Shown one piece after another: positions 5,407 through 12,248 of a stretch of DNA of 13,984 bases (within the stretch, counting starts at the first letter, position 1; each line of letters opens with the position of its first letter). The stretch is from Candidatus Electrothrix marina (lineage in GTDB: Bacteria > Desulfobacterota > Desulfobulbia > Desulfobulbales > Desulfobulbaceae). Position numbers and translations under genes: made by a program. Location: the NCBI GenBank assembly GCA_004028495.1, contig MTKS01000022.1, forward strand, positions 1-13,984. Direction: 5' to 3'. The notes beneath the pieces are model-generated. The model ran no database searches and had not been told where the DNA came from. It saw nothing but the letters and a program-made list of their open reading frames with translations.

Positions 5407-6117
5407 ATGAAGAGCGTTATTGTGTTTTGTGCAATCATGTTTTGTGCGATCATATTGCGTACAGGACAGGCTGCAGCAGTTATTAAAGACTGCGGGGAGC
5501 TGAAGTCCGAGATAGCTGCAAAGCTGGATGCCGCCGGTATCTCTCCGTCTGTTCTTGCTGTTGTGGATAAGGACTGGGCAGGTGCCGGAAAAATAGTAGG
5601 CAGCTGCGAGAACGGAACAAAGAGGATAGTGCGTATTCCGGCAGCCGGTCCTGTGTCCGGGGACGGGCAGGCGGATATACCCTCCCGCCCCTCCGTAACA
5701 TTTGCGTACGGTATTAAAGACTGTGAAGAGCTGAAGTCCGAGATAGCTGCAAAAATGGCTGCCGCAGGCGTATCCTCGTTTTTTCTTGCCATTGTGGACA
5801 AGGACAGGAAAGGTGCCGGAAAAATACTGGGGAGCTGTGAGAACGGAACAAAGAGGATAGTTCGTGCTCCCGTAGTCGATAGCGCGTCCGGGATTGAGCA
5901 GGCATATGTGAAGAGGTGGCCGGCAGACGCCCCCTCCGTATCACTTGCATATGGTATCAAGGACTGCGGAGAGCTGAAGTCCGAGATAGCTGCAAAGCTG
6001 GTCGCCGCAGGCGTATCATCGTTTCATCTTGCCATTGTGGATAAGGACAGGACAGGTGGTGGAAAGATAGTGGGGAGCTGTGAGAATGGAACAAAGAGGA
6101 TTATCCGCCGGAAATAG
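5407..6117 (+). CDS. Secreted protein with three tandem DUF1161-like domains
   Basis: 236 residues. Residues 1-24 are a signal peptide (Met-Lys, hydrophobic core, cleavage expected after QAAA), so the product should be periplasmic or exported. The mature part is three near-identical domains at residues 26-76, 103-153 and 184-234. Each has KDC(G/E)ELKSEIAAK near the start and VGSCENGTKRI or LGSCENGTKRI near the end. Each has just two cysteines 38 residues apart (29/67, 106/144, 187/225), likely one disulfide per domain. The domain resembles DUF1161, a small periplasmic family of unknown function usually found as one copy per protein; that match is from memory. DNA units start at 5482, 5713 and 5956 and share long identical stretches, pointing to recent duplication. 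Linkers also share PSV(T/S)(F/L)AYG. Start supported by GGAGAGG at 5395-5401. Confidence 0.8.
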   Translation: MKSVIVFCAIMFCAIILRTGQAAAVIKDCGELKSEIAAKLDAAGISPSVLAVVDKDWAGAGKIVGSCENGTKRIVRIPAAGPVSGDGQADIPSRPSVTFAYGIKDCEELKSEIAAKMAAAGVSSFFLAIVDKDRKGAGKILGSCENGTKRIVRAPVVDSASGIEQAYVKRWPADAPSVSLAYGIKDCGELKSEIAAKLVAAGVSSFHLAIVDKDRTGGGKIVGSCENGTKRIIRRK

Positions 6118-6369: not shown

Positions 6370-6573
6370 ATGGAACAGGTTCAGTATATTTCAAATGCAA
6401 ACAGCAAGGTTACCGGGGTTATTGTTCCGATAGACCTGTGGCGGGAGATTGAGTCGGAGCGAGAAACCGCCCGGCTGTTGCAAAGCGAAAACATGAAACG
6501 CCGATTACTGGAAGCAAAAAATCGCAAAGAAGGGATTCCTCTCGACGATGTCTGCACACAGCTTGGAATTTGA
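6370..6573 (+). CDS. YefM/Phd-like antitoxin of a type II TA pair
   Basis: 67 residues, intact. It is preceded by GAGGTG at 6359-6364, five bases before the ATG. The N-terminal half (YISNANSKVTGVIVPIDLW) looks like a short beta/alpha DNA-binding start. The C-terminal half is a charged helix (SENMKRRLLEAKNRKEG) of the kind that wraps a YoeB-type toxin in YefM-like antitoxins. Its 3' end overlaps the toxin start at 6548 by 26 bases, the usual translational coupling in these operons. The usual job is to bind and neutralise the toxin and repress the shared promoter. Family assignment rests mainly on the YoeB partner; the antitoxin sequence alone is less diagnostic. Confidence 0.7.
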   Translation: MEQVQYISNANSKVTGVIVPIDLWREIESERETARLLQSENMKRRLLEAKNRKEGIPLDDVCTQLGI

Positions 6574-6810
6574 TCCGTCAGCTTTTGACGATCTGACGTG
6601 GTGGATTGAAAAGGACCGGAAAAATCCTTGCGGATCATGAAGCTGGTCAAAGAGGTTCAGATAAATCCTTTTCAGGGAACCGGTAAGCCGGAACCGCTGA
6701 AACATGAGCTGTCCGGTTGCTGGTCTCGCAGGATTGACAAAGAGCATCGTCTGGTTTACGAAGTGCAGGAAGATAAAATCAGAATCCTTGCCTGCCGCTA
6801 CCACTATTAA
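6548..6810 (+). pseudogene. yoeB: YoeB-type mRNA interferase toxin, broken by a one-base frameshift
   Basis: From the ATG at 6548 the frame reads MSAHSLEFDPSAFDDLTWWI and stops at TGA 6638-6640 after 30 codons. One frame over, the rest of a YoeB follows to 6810: [11 protein letters not shown], then [32 protein letters not shown] and the C-terminal CRYHY. The catalytic residues known for YoeB (Glu in KPEPLK, Arg in SRRI, terminal His-Tyr) are all kept. The break sits at five A residues, 6620-6624; restoring a sixth A gives D-R-K-K-S-L-R-I-M, an ordinary YoeB sequence. So a single base loss in an A-tract separates this from a full 87-residue toxin. It could be a real mutation, a slippery switch or a sequencing error. 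Confidence 0.85.
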
Positions 6811-6838
6811 CCCCTCCCTCCTTAACCGCAGTTTTTCT

Positions 6839-6985
6839 CTACACAAAACCCGCGTTTACAATACTCTCAGGCACTGAAAAAGGATGCTTTTGCCGTGTCC
6901 GTTCAATTGTCTGCCGCAATATTTTCCGGCATTCCGGTTTATCGAAAAGATGCCGCCGCCGGAAGGTCACCGCCGGGATGACATG
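6839..6985 (-). pseudogene. Fragment of REP-associated tyrosine transposase (RAYT), N-terminal part
   Basis: On the minus strand the frame reads VIPAVTFRRRHLF, then DKPECRKILRQTIERTRQKHPF, and then diverges before a stop at 6839-6841. This corresponds to about residues 12-45 of RAYT (Y1 transposases that mobilise REP repeats), which typically read TVVTYRRRPLF...R..L...I..TR...PF. The HUH and catalytic Tyr regions are absent. It starts inside repeat A copy 1, as expected for a RAYT gene flanked by its own REP. A related fragment lies at 10270-10431. Family assignment is by eye. Confidence 0.55.
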
Positions 6986-7110
6986 AGGTTTCCGCACCCG
7001 GTGTTGAAACACCGGGCTATTATCGGCAGTCCCTACGGGACGCTGTTTTCCGGACGCCTTCGCCCCGGAGGGGCAATCGAAAATAGCCCACCGTTTTAAC
7101 GGTGGGTAGC
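6952..7110. repeat. Repeat A, copy 1 (159-bp REP-like palindromic repeat)
   Basis: It aligns without gaps to 7698-7856 with about ten mismatches by hand count. It contains three strong hairpins: CCCGGTGT-TGAA-ACACCGGG at 6997-7016, GCCCC-GGA-GGGGC near 7062-7074, and CCCACCGTT-TT-AACGGTGGG at 7087-7106. This is the style of REP elements mobilised by RAYT transposases. Its left end contains the start of a RAYT reading frame on the minus strand. Together with the RAYT fragment it fills the gene-free stretch 6811-7142. Confidence 0.8.
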
Positions 7111-7142
7111 GGCTTAGAACCAAGCCCAAAATCCGCATCTGC

Positions 7143-7172
7143 TTGACATGGAGCATACCATCCACTTAGAAT
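7143..7172 (+). promoter_or_regulatory. Sigma-70 promoter for the DUF4160/DUF2442 pair
   Basis: TTGACA at 7143-7148 (6/6), an 18-base spacer, then TAGAAT at 7167-7172 (5/6). The -10 box lies about 50 bases before the ATG at 7222. Confidence 0.6.
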
Positions 7173-7221
7173 ACGCAGGATGAACTATTCAAAGTCAATT
7201 TGAACTGAGAGAAAATATACC

Positions 7222-7449
7222 ATGCCCAGAATCGCATTTTTTTTTGGAATTTCGATTTATATGTATATGGACGACCACGGTGTTCCTCACTGTCACGGAG
7301 TTTACGGTGATTATGCCGGGTCTTTCAGTTTGGAAAACGGAGAACGAATTGCCGGAGAAATGCCACCCAAACAGGAAAGAAAAATCAAAGAATTCATCTC
7401 GGCGAACAGAGAAGATTTAATGGAGGCATGGCATGACCTCAGCAAGTAA
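7222..7449 (+). CDS. DUF4160 family small protein
   Basis: 75 residues beginning MPRIAFFFGISIYMYMDDHG, with the DUF4160 pattern: P-x-I near the start, then a (D)DHGxPHxH block (here DDHGVPHCHGVYG), then a helix ending near EAWHDLSK. The conserved His and Asp could bind metal, but no biochemical role is established to my knowledge. DUF4160 genes are typically followed by a DUF2442 gene, as here, and the pair is often listed as a putative TA-like module. The 3' end overlaps the next start by 17 bases. The Shine-Dalgarno is weak (GAGAGA at 7206-7211). Confidence 0.75.
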   Translation: MPRIAFFFGISIYMYMDDHGVPHCHGVYGDYAGSFSLENGERIAGEMPPKQERKIKEFISANREDLMEAWHDLSK

Positions 7450-7732
7450 GACACCTTGGAAAAAAGCGGTCGGAGCAAAGCCGCATCAGGGATATCGGCT
7501 GCATGTGATGATGGAGGATGACGAAGCATTGGATTTGGATCTGACCCCTCTGATTACACAGCGTGAGTCTTTTTGGCGACTGAAGAATTTTAGGTATTTC
7601 AAGAAAGTCGCTATTGATCCTCTGGGCGGTTTATGCTGGCCCGGTGGTGAGGATATTGCTCCGACCAGAATTCCGTATTATGCTGTTGGAAAAAGGGGCC
7701 GCCGTCGGAAGGTCACCACTGGAATGACATGA
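7433..7732 (+). CDS. DUF2442 family protein with C-terminus supplied by repeat A
   Basis: 99 residues. The DUF2442 core runs from about residue 18 to 85: a GYRLHVMMEDDEALDLDLTP strand pair, a helix around RLKNFRYFKKVAID and the family-like ending GGLCWPGGEDIAP. GGAGG at 7422-7426, six bases before the ATG, supports the start inside DUF4160. The last ~11 residues (RGRRRKVTTGMT) are encoded by repeat A copy 2, which begins at 7698, so the native C-terminus has been replaced or extended; the domain itself seems complete. Function is unknown; the tight coupling suggests the two proteins act together. Confidence 0.72.
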   Translation: MTSASKTPWKKAVGAKPHQGYRLHVMMEDDEALDLDLTPLITQRESFWRLKNFRYFKKVAIDPLGGLCWPGGEDIAPTRIPYYAVGKRGRRRKVTTGMT

Positions 7733-7856
7733 GATTTCCGCACCCGGTGTTGAAACACCGGGCTCTTATCGGCAGTCCCTCCGCGACGCTGTTTTCCGGG
7801 CACCTTCGCCCCGGAGGGGCAATCGAAAATAGCCCACCGTTTTAACGGTGGGTAGC
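7698..7856. repeat. Repeat A, copy 2 (159-bp REP-like palindromic repeat)
   Basis: Second copy of the repeat at 6952-7110, same orientation and length, with the same three hairpins. Its left part codes, on the minus strand, for the RAYT start HVIPVVTFRRRPLF and then breaks off. It overlaps the 3' end of the DUF2442 gene, and its right end (GTAGC) runs directly into repeat B copy 2. Confidence 0.8.
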
Positions 7857-7953
7857 GGGCAAGAGACAACAGGTCCAGCTTACCAAAAAGGCAGGCCCCA
7901 TTGTGGGGGCAAGCCAAAGACCCCCTTAATATTTTGCCCAACCTACCGGGCTA
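7852..7953. repeat. Repeat B, copy 2
   Basis: Matches copy 1 at 6196-6299 over its length, including GACAACAGGTCCAGCTTA and a centre hairpin CCCCA-TTG-TGGGG. Ends: GTAGCGGGCAA at the left and TTGCCCAACCTACCGGGCTAT at the right. Its right end coincides with the stop codon of the RelE/ParE-type toxin on the minus strand. Confidence 0.75.
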
Positions 7954-8253
7954 TTGAAGCAGACGCTTTTTCCATTTTTCAGGGTGTTGAGAGGTGTGAA
8001 AAACACTGTAAACTGTTAGCGTGTTCTTTCTGTATTCGTAAAATATCGCGTAGGGAAATCGCCTGAGCAGTACCCTTCGCCAGTCTCCGGTTACTTTGGC
8101 ATGCAGTTCAGGTAGGCGGCAGATAAACTGTATTCCTGCTTCGACGCAACTGAGGAACTCCTCGCCTAAACCGACTCTTCTGTCCTCATACCATTGATAG
8201 GCGTCCTCAATATCCAGCTCAACTTCCGGAGCAAACACAAGCTCAACGGCCAT
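7951..8253 (-). CDS. RelE/ParE superfamily toxin
   Basis: 100 residues, intact. It shows the ParE-like plan: an N-terminal strand and helix (LVFAPEVELDIEDAYQWYED), a second helix (GEEFLSCVEAGIQFI) and the C-terminal sheet VLLRRFPYAIFYEYRKNTLTVYSVFHTSQHPEKW. The FPYAIFYE and (V/L)xHxxxxPxKW signatures are typical of this branch. Members either cleave ribosome-bound mRNA or inhibit gyrase; which one applies cannot be told here. The antitoxin precedes it and overlaps by 11 bases. The TAG stop is formed by the last bases of repeat B copy 2, so the original 3' end may have been altered by a few codons. Confidence 0.82.
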   Translation of the reverse strand: MAVELVFAPEVELDIEDAYQWYEDRRVGLGEEFLSCVEAGIQFICRLPELHAKVTGDWRRVLLRRFPYAIFYEYRKNTLTVYSVFHTSQHPEKWKKRLLQ

Positions 8254-8461
8254 GATGTCCCCTGACCTTCGCTTTTATATCTTCCCATGTAAGAGAGGAG
8301 GCGGGGTTGTTTATTAAATTTTCCCGGCGGCGGTTCAGTTCCTTAGCCTGCCATTCATGAATCGGCACATCAGATGGTTCAGCGGCAAGATCATCCCAGA
8401 GATCTTCCACAAGCTGAAGTTTTTCCGGCGGACTCAGGTTAAAAATGGATTCCGTGTTCAT
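8243..8461 (-). CDS. Antitoxin, putative addiction module component (TIGR02574-like)
   Basis: 72 residues from the ATG at 8461. An in-frame GTG six bases upstream is possible, but GAGG lies five bases before the ATG and fits it better. The sequence LSPPEKLQLVEDLWDDLAAEP followed by PIHEWQAKELNRRRENLINN and SLTWEDIKAKVR is the standard pattern of this short antitoxin family, which is paired with RelE/ParE toxins in a fixed antitoxin-first order, as here. It should neutralise the toxin at 7951-8253 and autoregulate the operon. Confidence 0.85.
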   Translation of the reverse strand: MNTESIFNLSPPEKLQLVEDLWDDLAAEPSDVPIHEWQAKELNRRRENLINNPASSLTWEDIKAKVRGHHGR

Positions 8462-8494
8462 AGTCACCTCATTATTGATCTTTGCGGATTGTCA

Positions 8495-8544
8495 AAAGTA
8501 CATTGCTACTTTCTCAGTATAATGCGGTTATGCGATATAATCAA
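8495..8544 (-). promoter_or_regulatory. Promoter and inverted repeat for the antitoxin/RelE-ParE operon
   Basis: On the minus strand TTGATT (8539-8544), a 17-base spacer and TATACT (8516-8521) form a good promoter. Just downstream is an inverted repeat, AAAGTA (8495-8500) / TACTTT (8507-8512), well placed for an autoregulatory operator. Confidence 0.5.
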
Positions 8545-8580
8545 TTCAATCGCCCCGCCGGTTACCGGTCCTTGCAACAC

Positions 8581-8687
8581 AATCCCCCGGTGACGCAAGA
8601 TCATCCCCAAGGGGCGCATGGAAATCCCGTGGGCGGCAAGCGGGAATGTGGGTCGTTTTTGGGAAGCGAAGGGTTGCCCAACCTACA
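8581..8687. repeat. Repeat C, copy 1, with a scrap of repeat B end
   Basis: CCCCCGGTGACGCAAG at 8584-8599, then CATCCCC, GAAATCCCG and GCGGGAATGTGGG recur in the same order at 11780-11857. A shorter version (GACGCAAGACAATCCCC) is at 10188-10204. The right side here ends in TTGCCCAACCTAC (8675-8687), equal to the right end of repeat B copy 2. No gene is supported in 8545-8709. Confidence 0.5.
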
Positions 8688-8709
8688 AGGCTTACCGTCC
8701 AGATGATAC

Positions 8710-8747
8710 TTGCTTTTCCTTTCTATCCGTTATATTATCTATATAAC
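8710..8747 (+). promoter_or_regulatory. Promoter with overlapping inverted repeat for the antitoxin/PIN module
   Basis: TTGCTT at 8710-8715, a 17-base spacer, then TATTAT at 8733-8738 (5/6). A perfect inverted repeat, GTTATAT (8729-8735) / ATATAAC (8741-8747), overlaps the -10 box, the usual place for TA autorepression. Confidence 0.5.
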
Positions 8748-8782
8748 AATTATCAATAGTTTTTTTTGATGAGGTGAACACC

Positions 8783-9028
8783 ATGAATGCAGCCCTTAAA
8801 CCGATCATAAAAAATATTCGTCAGTTTCCCTTATCAGATCAATTGGAACTGATAAGTGAAATAACACGCACACTTTCTCACTGTTACCCTAAGAAACGTG
8901 ACAACAACGCAAAAGCTCTCTCGAATCACCATGAATGGTTTGACAAAATCATCCGCCTGAATCCGTCTGAAACATCCACGGAAACGCTTAATCGTCGGAT
9001 AGAGCAGGAAAGAGAATCCTGGGATTAG
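8783..9028 (+). CDS. Small protein, probable antitoxin partner of the PIN toxin
   Basis: 81 residues from the ATG at 8783; an upstream in-frame GTG at 8774 is part of the GAGGTG ribosome site and is not preferred. I do not recognise the family. The N-terminal third (IIKNIRQFPLSDQLELISEI) resembles short antitoxins that start with a helix on 'L...dQLeLi..i', and the C-terminal tail (NRRIEQERESWD) is highly charged. Its position, ending 2 bases before the start of a PIN-domain toxin, and its own promoter with an overlapping inverted repeat make an antitoxin role likely. Confidence 0.6.
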   Translation: MNAALKPIIKNIRQFPLSDQLELISEITRTLSHCYPKKRDNNAKALSNHHEWFDKIIRLNPSETSTETLNRRIEQERESWD

Positions 9029-9030
9029 GC

Positions 9031-9403
9031 ATGGCCTTCATTTACGCAGATAGCTGTATTATTATTTACCTGATAGAAGGTGATTTCAAGCGAAGAGAAC
9101 GGATTGCGGAATATCTCCAGCATTCCGAGTCCGCACCGAACCGCATCGGTTTTTCTGATCTGACCCGCATGGAATGCCTGATTCATCCTGTTCGTGAAGG
9201 GAATGTGCAGTTGCGTTCCGCTTACGAAGAATTTTTCAGCGGCCCTTGCTCTGATTATATCCCACTGACTTCCGAAGTTTTTGACAAGGGGACTCGGCTC
9301 AACAGAGTTGATGTCGGAATATCCGTTGAAGTGCCTCCACTCTGACCCCTTCCATCCCGCCGCCCCTCTGCGCTTTCTAATTCTCACGGATCACGTCTTC
9401 AAC
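9031..9403 (+). pseudogene. PIN-domain (VapC-like) toxin, frameshifted and interrupted by repeat B
   Basis: The first ~91 residues read as a PIN ribonuclease: FIYADSCIIIYLIEGD with the metal-binding Asp at residue 7, and LTRMECLIHP with the acidic residue at E48. Frame 0 then meets a stop at 9343-9345 with an atypical tail. Shifting one base near 9304 gives ELMSEYPLK, HSDPFHPAA and FLILTDHVFN, which corresponds, with decay, to the usual PIN end 'LKxPDALHLAAA...FLTNDxxF' holding the other acidic residues. That frame then runs into repeat B copy 3 at 9404. The toxin thus has a frameshift and a lost C-terminus and is probably inactive. The frameshift alignment is by eye. Confidence 0.7.
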
Positions 9404-9500
9404 GTAGGGTGGGCAAAAGACAACAAGTACATCTTGCCAAAAAGTCATCCCCCATCGTGGTGACAAGCCAAAGCCTCCCTGCATATTTTGCCCACCCTAC
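9404..9500. repeat. Repeat B, copy 3, with perfect 15-bp terminal inverted repeats
   Basis: 97 bases. The left end GTAGGGTGGGCAAAA (9404-9418) is the exact reverse complement of the right end TTTTGCCCACCCTAC (9486-9500). The interior (GACAACAAGTACATCTTGCC, then CAAGCCAAAGCCTCCC) matches the other copies. This is the best preserved copy and defines the element as a small non-coding MITE-like repeat. It sits where the PIN toxin reading frame should have continued. Confidence 0.82.
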
Positions 9501-9503
9501 TAC

Positions 9504-9533
9504 TGGAAGAGAAGATCAGAATCCTTGCCTGCC
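9504..9533 (+). pseudogene. Scrap of a second yoeB 3' end
   Basis: TGGAAGAGAAGATCAGAATCCTTGCCTGCC is nearly identical to the stretch at 6768-6797 coding for the end of the YoeB above ([10 protein letters not shown]). Only about ten codons remain (EEKIRILAC), directly after repeat B copy 3 and before the minus-strand HigA-like gene. It is a relic with no function expected. Confidence 0.6.
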
Positions 9534-9549
9534 CTAGCAAATTACATCT

Positions 9550-9828
9550 TCACGCAACAGCCAGTCGGCAGCCGAGTGCCTTGATGACCCTGCTGACTGT
9601 AGAGAATCTCGGATTCCCCTCTCCGGCAAGGGCCTTGTACAGGCTCTCACGATTCAGGCCCGCCTTTCTGGCCACCTCGCTCATCCCCTGTTTTCTGGCC
9701 AGATACCCCAGGGCAACAAGGAAAACTCTGGGATCGTCATCCATGTAGGCGTTATTCAGATATTCATTGATTTCTTCCGTTGTTTCCAGATAATCGAACG
9801 GGTTGTAGGATTTGGTTGCAAGCGTCAT
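9550..9828 (-). CDS. HigA-like addiction module antidote (TIGR02684-like), first copy
   Basis: 92 residues, intact. N-terminal half: FDYLETTEEINEYLNNAYMDDDPRVFLVALGYLARKQ. Then a helix-turn-helix: GMSEVARKAGLNRESLYKAL, followed by GNPRFSTVSRVIKALG. This layout (short helical lead, Xre-type HTH, 'xPxFxTxxxVxxALG') is that of the antidotes paired with HigB/RelE-like 'killer proteins', toxin gene first. The ATG overlaps the toxin stop (ATGA, 9825-9828), and GGGAGA just upstream supports the start. It should bind the toxin and repress the operon. Its toxin carries a nonsense codon; a paralogous antidote lies at 10438-10740. Confidence 0.85.
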   Translation of the reverse strand: MTLATKSYNPFDYLETTEEINEYLNNAYMDDDPRVFLVALGYLARKQGMSEVARKAGLNRESLYKALAGEGNPRFSTVSRVIKALGCRLAVA

Positions 9829-10130
9829 AACTGTTCTCCCGATTGTTTGAGCATCTCTTTTGCCTTTTTTATATCCCTTTCCTGGGTCGATTTATTTCCT
9901 CCACAGAGCAGGAGGATTATCTGACCATCACGGATCACGTAATACAGGCGATAGCCCTGCCCGACAAAAATCCGCATTTCACTGATGCCGCTGCCGACCG
10001 GTGCTACATCACCGAAGTTACCGAGCTTTGCCCGGTCAAGACGGGCGGCAACCGCAAGAACCGCCTTACGATCACGCAGCTTTTTCAGTCATTTATCAAA
10101 AGAGGACGTTGTTTTGATTTCATAGATCAT
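9825..10130 (-). pseudogene. HigB/RelE-like killer toxin with one in-frame TGA
   Basis: From the ATG at 10130 the minus strand encodes MIYEIKTTSSFDK, then TGA at 10089-10091, then 87 further uninterrupted codons: LKKLRDRKAVLAVAARLDRA, LGNFGDVAPVGSGISEMRIF, GYRLYYVIRDGQIILLLCGG and NKSTQERDIKKAKEML. Family members have Trp at the TGA position (F-x-x-W-L-x-x-L-x-D-R-x-A), so a single TGG to TGA change explains it. All other hallmarks (RLDR, G-N-F/L-G-D, GV/SGxxEMR, YRxYY, GG-K-S-Q-DI-KA) are intact. The codon after TGA starts with C, the context most prone to readthrough, so trace full-length product is possible. Translation from a downstream start would lose the first helix. Confidence 0.85.
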
Positions 10131-10269
10131 GATTATTTGTAGCCTGCAAACTACAGTTTATCAAGAACAGAGAAGTGAATAGAAGAGACGCAAGACAATC
10201 CCCCTGTGACTCGACAAGGGAGATGATCCTGCTCATGGGATTTGCGGGTTGATGGTTAGCGGTTGTTGT

Positions 10270-10431
10270 TTACTTGTGGTCGGGGTGTAAAGGGTGCTTT
10301 TGTCGGGTTCGTTCGATTGCCTGCCGCAATATTTTTCGGTATTGCGGGTTATGGAAAAGGGGGTGCCGCCGGAAGGGCACCACCGTGAAGAAGAAGGTTC
10401 TGCCCGGTAAAAAGGGTCGGGGATAATTTGA
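10270..10431 (-). pseudogene. RAYT (REP-associated transposase) N-terminal fragment
   Basis: The minus strand reads SNYPRPFLPGRTFFFTVVPF, then RRHPLFHNPQYRKILRQAIE, then RTRQKHP, and leaves homology before a stop at 10270-10272. This is the classic RAYT/TnpA_REP start (NYRR..LPGGTYFFTVV..RR..LF). The initiator codon is missing: an in-frame TGA lies two codons upstream. The HUH and Tyr motifs are absent. It follows directly behind the second HigA-like gene. The rest of 10131-10269 contains only a short piece of repeat C near 10188. Confidence 0.65.
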
Positions 10432-10437
10432 CTGTCC

Positions 10438-10740
10438 TCAGTGAACAGGTTGGGCAACAAGGCGAACACCGAGAGCGGTGCATACCCGGTTTATCGTGTC
10501 AAACCTTGGTTTCGCATGAGGTGTGAGTGCTTTATACAATGCCTCTCTGGTAAGACCTGTGGCCTTTGCGATCTCACTCATACCACGGGCCTTGGCCGCA
10601 ACGCCCAGAGCGTGTGCAAGCTCGGCGGCATCTCCGTCTTCAATCACCATCGTCACATAAGCGGCGATATCTTCCTCGCTCTTGAGCTGCCGGGCCATAT
10701 CAAACTCAGGCAGATCGGCAATGCGTGTTTTACGGGGCAT
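10438..10740 (-). CDS. HigA-like addiction module antidote, second copy
   Basis: 100 residues, intact, and paralogous to the antidote at 9550-9828: LKSEEDIAAYVTMVIEDGD, then an HTH with GMSEIAKATGLTREALYKAL and KPRFDTINRVCTALG. GGAGGA lies 7 bases before the ATG and supports the start. The toxin gene precedes it, ending three bases upstream, but is broken. As a DNA-binding antidote it could still repress its promoter or cross-neutralise related toxins. Confidence 0.85.
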   Translation of the reverse strand: MPRKTRIADLPEFDMARQLKSEEDIAAYVTMVIEDGDAAELAHALGVAAKARGMSEIAKATGLTREALYKALTPHAKPRFDTINRVCTALGVRLVAQPVH

Positions 10741-10743
10741 GGT

Positions 10744-11026
10744 TTATTCCTCCAGTTTTGCGTAAAGTCGTTTGGCTTTTGCAATATCCACCTGCTGTGA
10801 ACTCTTGTCTCCGCCTCCGAGCATAATGATCAGGGTGTCTCCTTTTTTGGCATAATACATGCGCCAGCCGGGACCGAAAAACTCCCTCATTTCAAAGATG
10901 CCGTCACCCACCGGCTTGACATCACCGAGGTTGCCGCACTTGTGCCCTGTCCAGACGGCGGCTCAATCTGAGACGGGTCACACGGTCTTGCAGACCGTCG
11001 AGAAGTGTTATCCCGTTATTTTCTTT
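10744..11026 (-). pseudogene. HigB/RelE-like killer toxin, 5'-truncated and frameshifted
   Basis: The last 64 codons (from 10938) are a clean killer-protein C-terminus: CGNLGDVKPVGDGIFEMREF, GPGWRMYYAKKGDTLIIMLG and GGDKSSQQVDIAKAKRLYAK. Upstream, the preceding part continues in another frame as KENNGITLLDGLQDRVTRLR, LSRRLDRAQ. One extra G at 10939 joins them wrongly. Before codon KENNG there is a TGA and no start, and the usual 'PFxxW' segment is missing, so the 5' end is deleted as well. The remnant begins about 7 bases after the vapC stop. It is not expected to be functional. Confidence 0.78.
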
Positions 11027-11032
11027 TCAAAA

Positions 11033-11419
11033 TTACCACATTACCTGCACATCATAAAGGCCGAAAAAAGAATCGCACGAGAGCAAAATAAGCGAGTCCG
11101 TCATAGCCTGAGCAATCAACATCCGGTCGAACGGGTCTTTGTGATGCCGGGGAAGTCGGCCTGCTTGAAAAGCGTATCTGTCGGTTATGGGAAGGGACTC
11201 AATCTGATTTCCTGCAAGTTCCTGCGCCAGAAATATTTCCGGTGCATCTGGCAGCGGGAGCCGTCCCAAGGCATATTTAATGCCGACTTCCCATGAGCTT
11301 GCGGCACTCCAATACAAGGTATTCCCGTTGTCTTTTATGAGCTTTCGGGCGGTTTCTGAAAGTTGCGCGTCATCTGTGATCCACCACAGAAAGGCATGTG
11401 TGTCCAAAAGAATATTCAT
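11033..11419 (-). CDS. vapC: VapC-family PIN-domain toxin
   Basis: 128 residues, intact. PIN ribonuclease with all acidic residues in place: D6 in LLDTHAFLWW, E44 in SSWEVGIKYALGRL, D95/D98 in HHKDPFDRMLIAQA, and D116 in LLSCDSFF. The DTHAxLWW start and KDPFDRmLiAQA motif define the branch commonly paired with Phd/YefM-type antitoxins, which is what precedes it. Such toxins are Mg-dependent RNases, typically cutting tRNA or rRNA. The start overlaps the antitoxin stop by 4 bases (ATGA). One of only two clearly intact toxins in this cluster. Confidence 0.9.
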   Translation of the reverse strand: MNILLDTHAFLWWITDDAQLSETARKLIKDNGNTLYWSAASSWEVGIKYALGRLPLPDAPEIFLAQELAGNQIESLPITDRYAFQAGRLPRHHKDPFDRMLIAQAMTDSLILLSCDSFFGLYDVQVMW

Positions 11420-11649
11420 TGTTCAAAGGCATCAATGATGTCGTCAGGAAGCGGTTCAAAGAACTCCTGCGGAACAGTGAATTTTCCTTTGGCCGAGCCG
11501 GGCTTGCGGGGAGCGGTTTTCTTTTGAAAAGGAACAAGTCGCGCCACGGGTTCACCGTAGCGGGCGATGATCACCTCATCTCCTTTTTCGACGACGGCGA
11601 TCAGTTTGGAAAACTGTGTTTTTGCCTGATGAATATTTATCTGCTGCAT
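11416..11649 (-). CDS. Phd/YefM-family antitoxin partner of VapC
   Basis: 77 residues, intact. The N-terminal MQQINIHQAKTQFSKLIAVV and GDEVIIARYGEPVARLVPF are the Phd/YefM DNA-binding fold. The Pro/Lys-rich middle and acidic C-terminus (PLPDDIIDAFEQ) would lie across the VapC active site. AAAGGAG sits 7 bases before the ATG. It is translationally coupled to vapC and presumably autoregulates through the palindrome upstream. Confidence 0.9.
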   Translation of the reverse strand: MQQINIHQAKTQFSKLIAVVEKGDEVIIARYGEPVARLVPFQKKTAPRKPGSAKGKFTVPQEFFEPLPDDIIDAFEQ

Positions 11650-11775: not shown

Positions 11776-11902
11776 ATCATCCCCCGGTGACGCAAGGCAA
11801 TCCCCTTTTCTCATCTCCTTCCTAGGCAGATGGGAAATCCCGCAGGCGGGAATGTGGGGGCAAGCCAAAGCCCCCTTAATATTTTGCCCACCCTACCGGG
11901 CT
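11776..11902. repeat. Repeat C copy 2 joined to the right half of repeat B (copy 4)
   Basis: 11780-11857 repeats the order of blocks at 8584-8650: CCCCCGGTGACGCAAG, AATCCCC, GAAATCCCG, GCGGGAATGTGGG, with a small TCCCGC-AGG-CGGGA hairpin. From 11853 it continues as the right half of repeat B (CAAGCCAAAGCCCCCTTAAT, then ATTTTGCCCACCCTACCGGGCT). It ends abruptly inside the tnpA reading frame. Confidence 0.6.
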
Positions 11903-12248
11903 GATCGGTGATGTCGCCCTCCGAGTTCGTGAGCTTGTTCGTCAAACGTGCGAGTCTTTCGAGATTCAGATTCTCAAAGGAGTTGTGAGTAAGGACCATG
12001 TCCATATCTTTGTGTCGGCACCGCCGACAATGGCTCCGAGCGAGATCATGCGTCGAATCAAGGGGCGCACGTCGAGTAAGTTGTTTTCAGAGTTTCCGCA
12101 CTTGCGCAAGCGGTTCTGGGGGCGTCATTTTTGGGCACGCGGCTATTTTTGCGCCTCGTCAGGTCAAGTGACCGACGAAATGATATCGTCGTATCTTGCC
12201 CATCATTTCGAGCCGAAAAAAGATGATGATTTTCGGACTGAATCATAA
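11901..12248 (+). pseudogene. tnpA: IS200/IS605-family TnpA transposase, 5'-truncated
   Basis: An open frame of 115 codons without its own start: LIGDVALRVRELVRQTCESF, SKDHVHIFVSAPP, MRRIKGRTSSKLFSEFPHLR, HFWARGYFCASSG, MISSYLAHHFEP. HVH is the HUH metal-binding motif, and Tyr in ISSYLAHH matches the catalytic Tyr of Y1 transposases. About 30 N-terminal residues (the '...YHIVWCPKYRRKVL' part) are missing, replaced by the end of repeat B at 11902. An internal ATG would omit still more. Two hairpins follow the stop. The protein is probably inactive for lack of the first strands, though the active-site residues persist. No tnpB is present. Confidence 0.85.

Follow-up and report, generated by a model that had tools for sequence, protein, structure and literature searches.

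What leaves a cluster of toxin–antitoxin (TA) modules with broken toxins beside intact antitoxins? The question is raised by contig MTKS01000022.1 of Candidatus Electrothrix marina, 13,984 nucleotides that were analyzed whole and are called the window here, in which seven TA-type modules lie at 6370..11649 and four of the toxins are defective. The contig belongs to an assembly (G000) of 2.05 Mb in 472 contigs that is ~70% complete, and we compared it with seven genomes of the same genus (G001–G007), giving a set of eight. The answer that we favor, at a probability of roughly 0.78, is that the cluster is a turnover site of exchanged type II TA modules and that the pattern reflects ordered decay, in which the toxin of a module is lost before its antitoxin.

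A list of open reading frames (ORFs) and a Pfam profile search found all seven modules where an original prediction, made from the sequence alone, had placed them, and the ORF list bore out its statement that every partner antitoxin is open from start to stop. The features are given below by coordinates and strand.

6370..6573, + strand: module 1 antitoxin, 67 aa, open; filed as Phd/YefM-like only, its PF02604 match of 19.5 bits being weak and short of the cut-off of 29.8 bits.
6548..6810, + strand: module 1 YoeB toxin, split into pieces at 6548-6640 and 6628-6810, with PF06769 in the 3′ piece.
7222..7449, + strand: module 2 DUF4160 ORF, open, by domain match; the protein is identical in G006.
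7433..7732, + strand: module 2 DUF2442 ORF, open; its 3′ end enters a repeat at 7691-7858, as it does in G006.
7951..8253, − strand: module 3 ParE-type toxin (PF05016), open.
8243..8467, − strand: module 3 antitoxin, Unstab_antitox/TIGR02574 by profile matches, open.
8774..9028, + strand: module 4 presumed antitoxin, 84 aa, open, with no Pfam or NCBIfam match.
9031..9345, + strand: module 4 PIN toxin, with an in-frame internal deletion of 32 codons by comparison with G003 and G006.
9550..9828, − strand: module 5 antitoxin, HI1420 type (TIGR02684 profile match), open.
9825..10130, − strand: module 5 toxin, HI1419 type, with a nonsense codon; TIGR02683 is matched by the G007 copy.
10438..10740, − strand: module 6 antitoxin, HI1420 type by profile match, open.
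10744..11002, − strand: module 6 toxin remnant, HI1419 type, with its 5′ end lost and an internal frame change.
11033..11419, − strand: module 7 PIN (VapC-type) toxin (PF01850), open.
11416..11649, − strand: module 7 antitoxin, Phd/YefM (PF02604), open.

Two modules have open toxins and pair adjacent domains that both score above cut-off: ParE with a TIGR02574 antitoxin in module 3, and PIN with Phd/YefM in module 7. Modules 5 and 6 place the toxin gene first and the antitoxin downstream; their antitoxins in the window exceed the NCBIfam cut-offs, as do intact relatives of their toxins in G007 (module 5) and G003 (module 6). Module 2 is a presumed pair only.

The original prediction held that four toxins were broken in frame by distinct lesions. 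Four are indeed defective, and YoeB and both HI1419-type toxins are broken, but a count of four broken frames is ruled out by the PIN toxin of module 4, which reads open to its natural stop. Relative to the 136-aa G003 copy it has lost 32 codons (96 nt) in frame, a deletion also present in G006. The missing segment contains the stretches PDAIHLA and TND, the former presumably including catalytic acids, and what is left in the window scores 17.5 bits, below the PIN cut-off of 23.6. The G003 copy itself aligns weakly to a VapC structure (E value 0.013), PDAIHLA stretch included, and matched no NCBIfam model. Within a short homopolymer run near 6620-6630, YoeB and its G006 counterpart differ by a single base, which shifts the frame; at the same place G006 has an open YoeB of 87 aa, and the G003 copy is open too. 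The G006 protein matches TIGR02116 over its whole length and above cut-off, matches YoeB/RelK structures by sequence and ends in RYHY, the last His-Tyr of which we take to be catalytic, while TIGR02116-type features survive in the window only in pieces. In the module 5 toxin an in-frame stop falls ~14 codons from the start, and the 87 codons beyond it are open. The module 6 toxin has lost its 5′ end at a junction (11002/11003) where DNA located elsewhere in G003 adjoins, and it also carries a frame change relative to the open 98-aa G003 copy.

Damage that falls on toxins and spares antitoxins recurs among relatives. We surveyed orthologues of modules 1, 3, 4, 5 and 6 from the toxin side and from the antitoxin side, tracing broken partners by reading all frames. 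The module 1 antitoxin is open at 5/5 loci in five genomes; YoeB is open in G003 and G006, frameshifted in G000, altered at its end in G007 and absent from G001. The G007 gene (L169, 3669-4040) encodes a YoeB whose last two residues are swapped for ~40 unrelated ones. At the five module 3 loci, in four genomes, the antitoxin is always open and ParE is open twice, being nearly deleted in G005 and at one G007 locus and cut at another G007 locus; a close full-length counterpart of the window's ParE occurs in G006 only, other matches being at most 38% identical. The module 4 antitoxin is open at 5/5 loci and PIN is damaged at 3/5 (open in G001 and G003, deleted in frame in G000 and G006, stopped early in G007). 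Among the five loci closest to module 5 (at least 88% identity) all antitoxins are open, and the toxin is open only in G007, the copies in G000, G003, G005 and G006 being broken by different lesions; at the next two loci (G005 and G007; 83%) the toxins are open. The module 6 toxin is broken in G000 and open in G003, in G006 and at more distant loci of G005 and G007. Counting independent disrupting events over these five modules gives 12 in toxins (3, 2, 2, 4 and 1 for modules 1, 3, 4, 5 and 6) and 0 in antitoxins. A length-based binomial, with toxins making up 522/939 codons, gives p = 0.0009, and hand arithmetic that excludes the four G000 lesions that prompted the question gives p ~0.009; since loci are related, these and the later p-value are guides only.

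The same asymmetry appeared when whole toxin families were counted across the eight genomes. We covered three families, HI1419/HI1420-type, YoeB and other Gp49-type, and in each merged one row that was a second piece of a gene already counted (37 rows to 36 loci, 29 to 28, and 22 non-HI1419 rows to 21, respectively). Among the 36 HI1420-type loci, both genes are open at 14, an open antitoxin accompanies a broken toxin at 11 and stands with no toxin trace at 2, and the antitoxin is damaged at 9. None of these nine damaged antitoxins has an intact toxin of its own: one has a broken toxin, seven have no toxin trace and one, a fragment, lies in tandem behind a pair that is intact. At the YoeB loci, antitoxins were sought in the 330 nt upstream, and start codons were verified individually for three antitoxins. 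Here 22 of the 28 toxins are open, and all 22 have an antitoxin ORF upstream that is open too; at the six damaged loci the antitoxin is open in two, no full antitoxin lies within the 330 nt read in three, and one is uncertain. The 21 other Gp49-type loci comprise 15 open toxins, all followed downstream by an antitoxin-like ORF that is open, three broken toxins with an open antitoxin-like ORF (G001:C25, G003:1036371 and G002:C76), one locus with both genes damaged (G003:C2:706810) and two uncertain cases. Like many of the HI1419 type, broken toxins of this last family retain a 3′ part next to the antitoxin in L123 (G001:C25), L114 (G002:C76), L176 (G003) and L124 (G006).

Pooling the three families, and including a G001 locus (G001:C210) where antitoxin 1 is present and YoeB absent, we count 19 loci with a dead or lost toxin and an open antitoxin, and none with an intact toxin and a damaged antitoxin. 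Damaged antitoxins without an intact toxin of their own occur 13 times (9, 3 and 1 by family). Three further loci stand outside the main classes as uncertain: G005:551804, with a short antitoxin and a toxin with a stop; G006:2098102, with an altered antitoxin tail and a broken toxin; and G001:C195, with an open antitoxin and an unclear toxin end. Without the three G000 loci the discordant count is 16 to 0. A p of 0.00003 belongs to another count of 16 to 0, calculated before the other Gp49-type family was added. The predicted bias toward toxin damage thus recurs in the genus, equal decay of antitoxins was looked for among the relatives and not found, and neutral decay without order is rejected by the 12 to 0 events and the 19 to 0 discordant loci.

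Ordered decay would proceed in three steps. A module would arrive or be copied; a lesion in its toxin would then be tolerated at once, the antitoxin still being present; and with the toxin dead, the antitoxin would lose constraint and, given time, break too. An antitoxin lesion next to a live toxin would be lethal or costly and hence removed. Because a toxin without its antitoxin harms the cell, antitoxin lesions should be tolerated only once the toxin is dead, and G000 would hold four modules caught after toxin death and before antitoxin decay. The scheme assumes that the intact toxin copies, as judged from their sequences, are probably active toxins, and that selection presumably removes antitoxin loss. 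It requires no later benefit from the antitoxin: selection should in any case act against damage to an antitoxin whose toxin is live. The original prediction had reasoned that neutral decay should hit both partners and that the antitoxins must therefore be under selection, an argument that is not supported: toxin-first order is expected anyway, the lesions of modules 1, 5 and 6 are recent, and antitoxins 3 and 1 seem to be under looser constraint where their toxins are gone.

The age of the lesions is read from comparison with intact copies. Module 1 has no synonymous difference from G006 in the antitoxin (67 codons) or the YoeB part (60 codons), at a synonymous divergence (dS) of 0.40 for murA, a neighboring gene so named by reading its protein sequence; module 6 has none from G003 in the antitoxin (98 codons) or the toxin remnant (55 codons), at a murA dS of 0.36. 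Given zero synonymous divergence from intact copies, both lesions are recent. We infer from these low values, far below that of murA, that such modules have probably been exchanged between lineages not long ago. For module 5, comparison with G007 gives raw counts of 23 synonymous and 3 nonsynonymous differences in the toxin beyond the stop and 16 and 2 in the antitoxin; since the toxin remnant and the antitoxin are similarly constrained, this stop is recent as well. The openness of these antitoxins alone, beside lesions this young, is rejected as a sign of selection on them, and continued selection cannot be judged from modules 1, 5 and 6 of G000. The deletion in module 4 dates further back, since G000 and G006 both carry it, and here recombination muddies the comparison of the antitoxin after the deletion. 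Antitoxin 4 has zero nucleotide differences between G006 and G003 over 84 codons, next to a PIN dS of 0.12, a sign of recombination within the module.

Older toxin losses allow constraint to be compared across relatives by dN/dS (omega), a check that the original prediction had proposed and that came out divided. Between G005 and one of the G007 loci (G007a), which share the toxin deletion, antitoxin 3 differs by 4 synonymous and 5 nonsynonymous changes (omega 0.36), against 6 and 1 (omega 0.04) between the toxin-bearing loci of G000 and G006; mixed pairings give 0.13-0.32. For antitoxin 1, the four pairings that involve G001, which lacks YoeB, have omega values of 0.21-0.29, and the five others that could be computed have 0.08-0.17. 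Small as the numbers are, these sequence comparisons suggest looser constraint on antitoxins 3 and 1 after older toxin loss. Several results pull the other way and weigh against ordered decay. Each omega rests on few changes and the loci are not independent; the two other toxin-less pairings of antitoxin 3 give 0.18 and 0.34, which makes the 0.36 a single point in a range; and in the part compared, the shortened PIN of G000 and G006 differs by 3 synonymous and 0 nonsynonymous changes. Constraint was kept in a pair of HI1419/HI1420-type loci, G001:C12 and G002:C82, whose antitoxins differ by 29 synonymous and 16 nonsynonymous changes (omega 0.12) and whose 3′ toxin remnants differ by 13 and 7 (omega 0.14). 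These two loci probably have one common toxin deletion, the same region being lost, but the deletion junctions lie 6 nt apart and parallel deletion is possible. Outside G002:C82, a family-wide search of 73 genomes found no relative of the G001:C12 antitoxin above 46% identity. In both loci the HI1419-type toxin (L161, 1219-1462; L151, 1225-1459) has an internal deletion, and its constrained 3′ part runs into the antitoxin start.

The alternative that fares best, although we regard it as improbable, is that antitoxins are kept after toxin loss because they confer a benefit, as regulators or as anti-addiction factors that counter TA modules coming in. In its favor, other species of the genus carry intact, highly identical versions of the cognate toxins, the divergence of some modules is far below that of murA, and the G001:C12/G002:C82 antitoxin has held its constraint despite toxin loss; an anti-addiction role may exist. 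Against a retained benefit stand the looser constraint on antitoxin 3 in G005 and G007a and on antitoxin 1 in G001, and the damage to 9/36 HI1420-type antitoxins; in modules 1, 5 and 6 of G000 the lesions are too recent to be informative. Within the 70% complete G000 assembly we found no second YoeB, no second module 4 PIN and no further HI1419-type toxin, and any target of its orphan antitoxins would thus have to lie outside that assembly. The only other Gp49 toxin in G000 (C89) scores 24.6 against the TIGR02683 cut-off of 62.85, and its own antitoxin-like ORF is open.

A little less probable still is that some shortened toxins are not dead genes but act as inert partners (co-repressors) or as keepers of antitoxin translation. 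The PIN deletion is in frame and no nonsynonymous change has followed between G000 and G006; of the 11 HI1419-type loci where a broken toxin accompanies an open antitoxin, ten (all but G003:45462) have a 3′ toxin part that reads open as far as the antitoxin, and one such remnant is the constrained one of G001:C12 and G002:C82. However, of the indel lesions read, only two are in frame (module 4 PIN and G001:C28), the remnants of modules 1, 5 and 6 are explained by older constraint because their lesions are recent, and in G005 and G007 almost nothing remains of the module 3 toxin next to an antitoxin that is still open. At G002:C106 (L137) the antitoxin ORF opens with residues that resemble the first ones of the G001:C28 toxin, which would fit a toxin deletion reaching back to its start. 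A more specific proposal, which we hold to be unlikely, is that an antitoxin and an inert truncated toxin half are kept together as a regulatory or immunity pair: lesions would spare the HI1419-type 3′ part or delete the PIN active-site region in frame, and both parts would be under purifying selection, protecting against intact modules circulating among species.

That the toxin lesions are sequencing or assembly errors is very improbable: the YoeB lesion, a single base in a homopolymer of a fragmentary assembly with no synonymous difference from the intact G006 copy, may be real or such an error, but pure assembly error is rejected by the other three lesions (a nonsense codon, a rearrangement junction with a frameshift, and a 96-nt deletion also in G006), by lesions of the same kinds in single-contig genomes, and by the four neighboring ORFs (453, 612, 427 and 236 aa), whose openness makes general error unlikely.

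The surroundings of the cluster were read as well. Ahead of the modules come a sigma-54 regulator, a kinase-like ORF, murA and a DUF1161 gene. The best named match to the MurA protein is from Candidatus Electrothrix gigas AU1_5, at 89% identity. The DUF1161 gene (5407-6117) encodes a protein with three DUF1161 repeats, and homologous DNA lies beside murA in 7/7 same-genus genomes. Much of the same cluster sits beside murA in G006, modules 5 and 6 being absent from the cluster there. G003 has its counterparts of modules 1, 4, 5, 6 and 7 away from murA, in a densely packed stretch of TA-type ORFs (L167, 8128-19844) that encloses an ORF that reads as transposase-like (13109-14545). Three matches to the Rfam Acido-Lenti-1 RNA (RF01687) exceed the gathering score in the window, at 6997-7042 (+), 7061-7106 (−) and 7807-7852 (−), all of them inside dispersed repeats (6945-7112 and 7691-7858), which G006 has as well. 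Inter-module stretches at ~8574-8628 and 11779-11805 match a 21-bp tandem repeat array of ~33 copies in G005 (L172, 14365-15064). Downstream lie a 5′-truncated IS200-type (Y1) transposase (11985-12248) and an ORF with a Tle1-like catalytic domain that runs off the contig end (12936-13982).

The pattern is ordinary TA turnover, well replicated in the genus, and it yields a rule that can be counted: in the families examined every intact toxin has an open antitoxin, and the converse fails. An open antitoxin beside a broken toxin is by itself no sign of selection; how old the lesion is must be measured first, and loci with a shared toxin loss (antitoxin 3 in G005 and G007a; G001:C12 and G002:C82) are where the question can be decided. 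The mechanism is ordinary, yet the series it has left is clean, natural and useful. Decay of a chromosomal TA system, ccdO157 of E. coli, was reportedly described by Mine et al. in 2009. A literature search on cable bacteria with toxin–antitoxin, orphan or solitary antitoxins, ccdO157 decay, and pseudogenes or frameshifts with antitoxins returned no report of this pattern in cable bacteria; within the literature searched, the kind of event is known, and this instance and its replication within one genus appear to be new.

How does the cluster compare with known systems? Modules 5 and 6 belong to the HI1419/HI1420 type (TIGR02683/TIGR02684) by their antitoxins and the intact relatives of their toxins, both window toxins being broken. 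Module 1 resembles YefM-YoeB: the G006 toxin exceeds the TIGR02116 cut-off, the antitoxin is weakly Phd/YefM-like and the window toxin is broken. With ccdO157 the likeness is that TA loci decay; here several unrelated families do so in one cluster and across eight genomes of one genus. According to reviews, chromosomal TA loci degenerate through deletions and nonsense mutations, drift yields inactive toxin mutants, and a functional antitoxin is indispensable to cells with a toxin gene, the last point from one of them (PMC7167474, PMC2654758). Antitoxins without a working toxin are likewise described as abundant in Klebsiella pneumoniae (PMC7192599) and E. coli (PMC10790755) and are read there as degrading pairs or possible anti-addiction factors, a likeness to the loci described here. 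The E. coli survey also counts orphan toxins as abundant by its own criteria (PMC10790755); the three families examined in Electrothrix differ, in that every damaged antitoxin lacks an intact toxin of its own and, with broken partners traced in all frames, no intact toxin turned up that lacked an open antitoxin.

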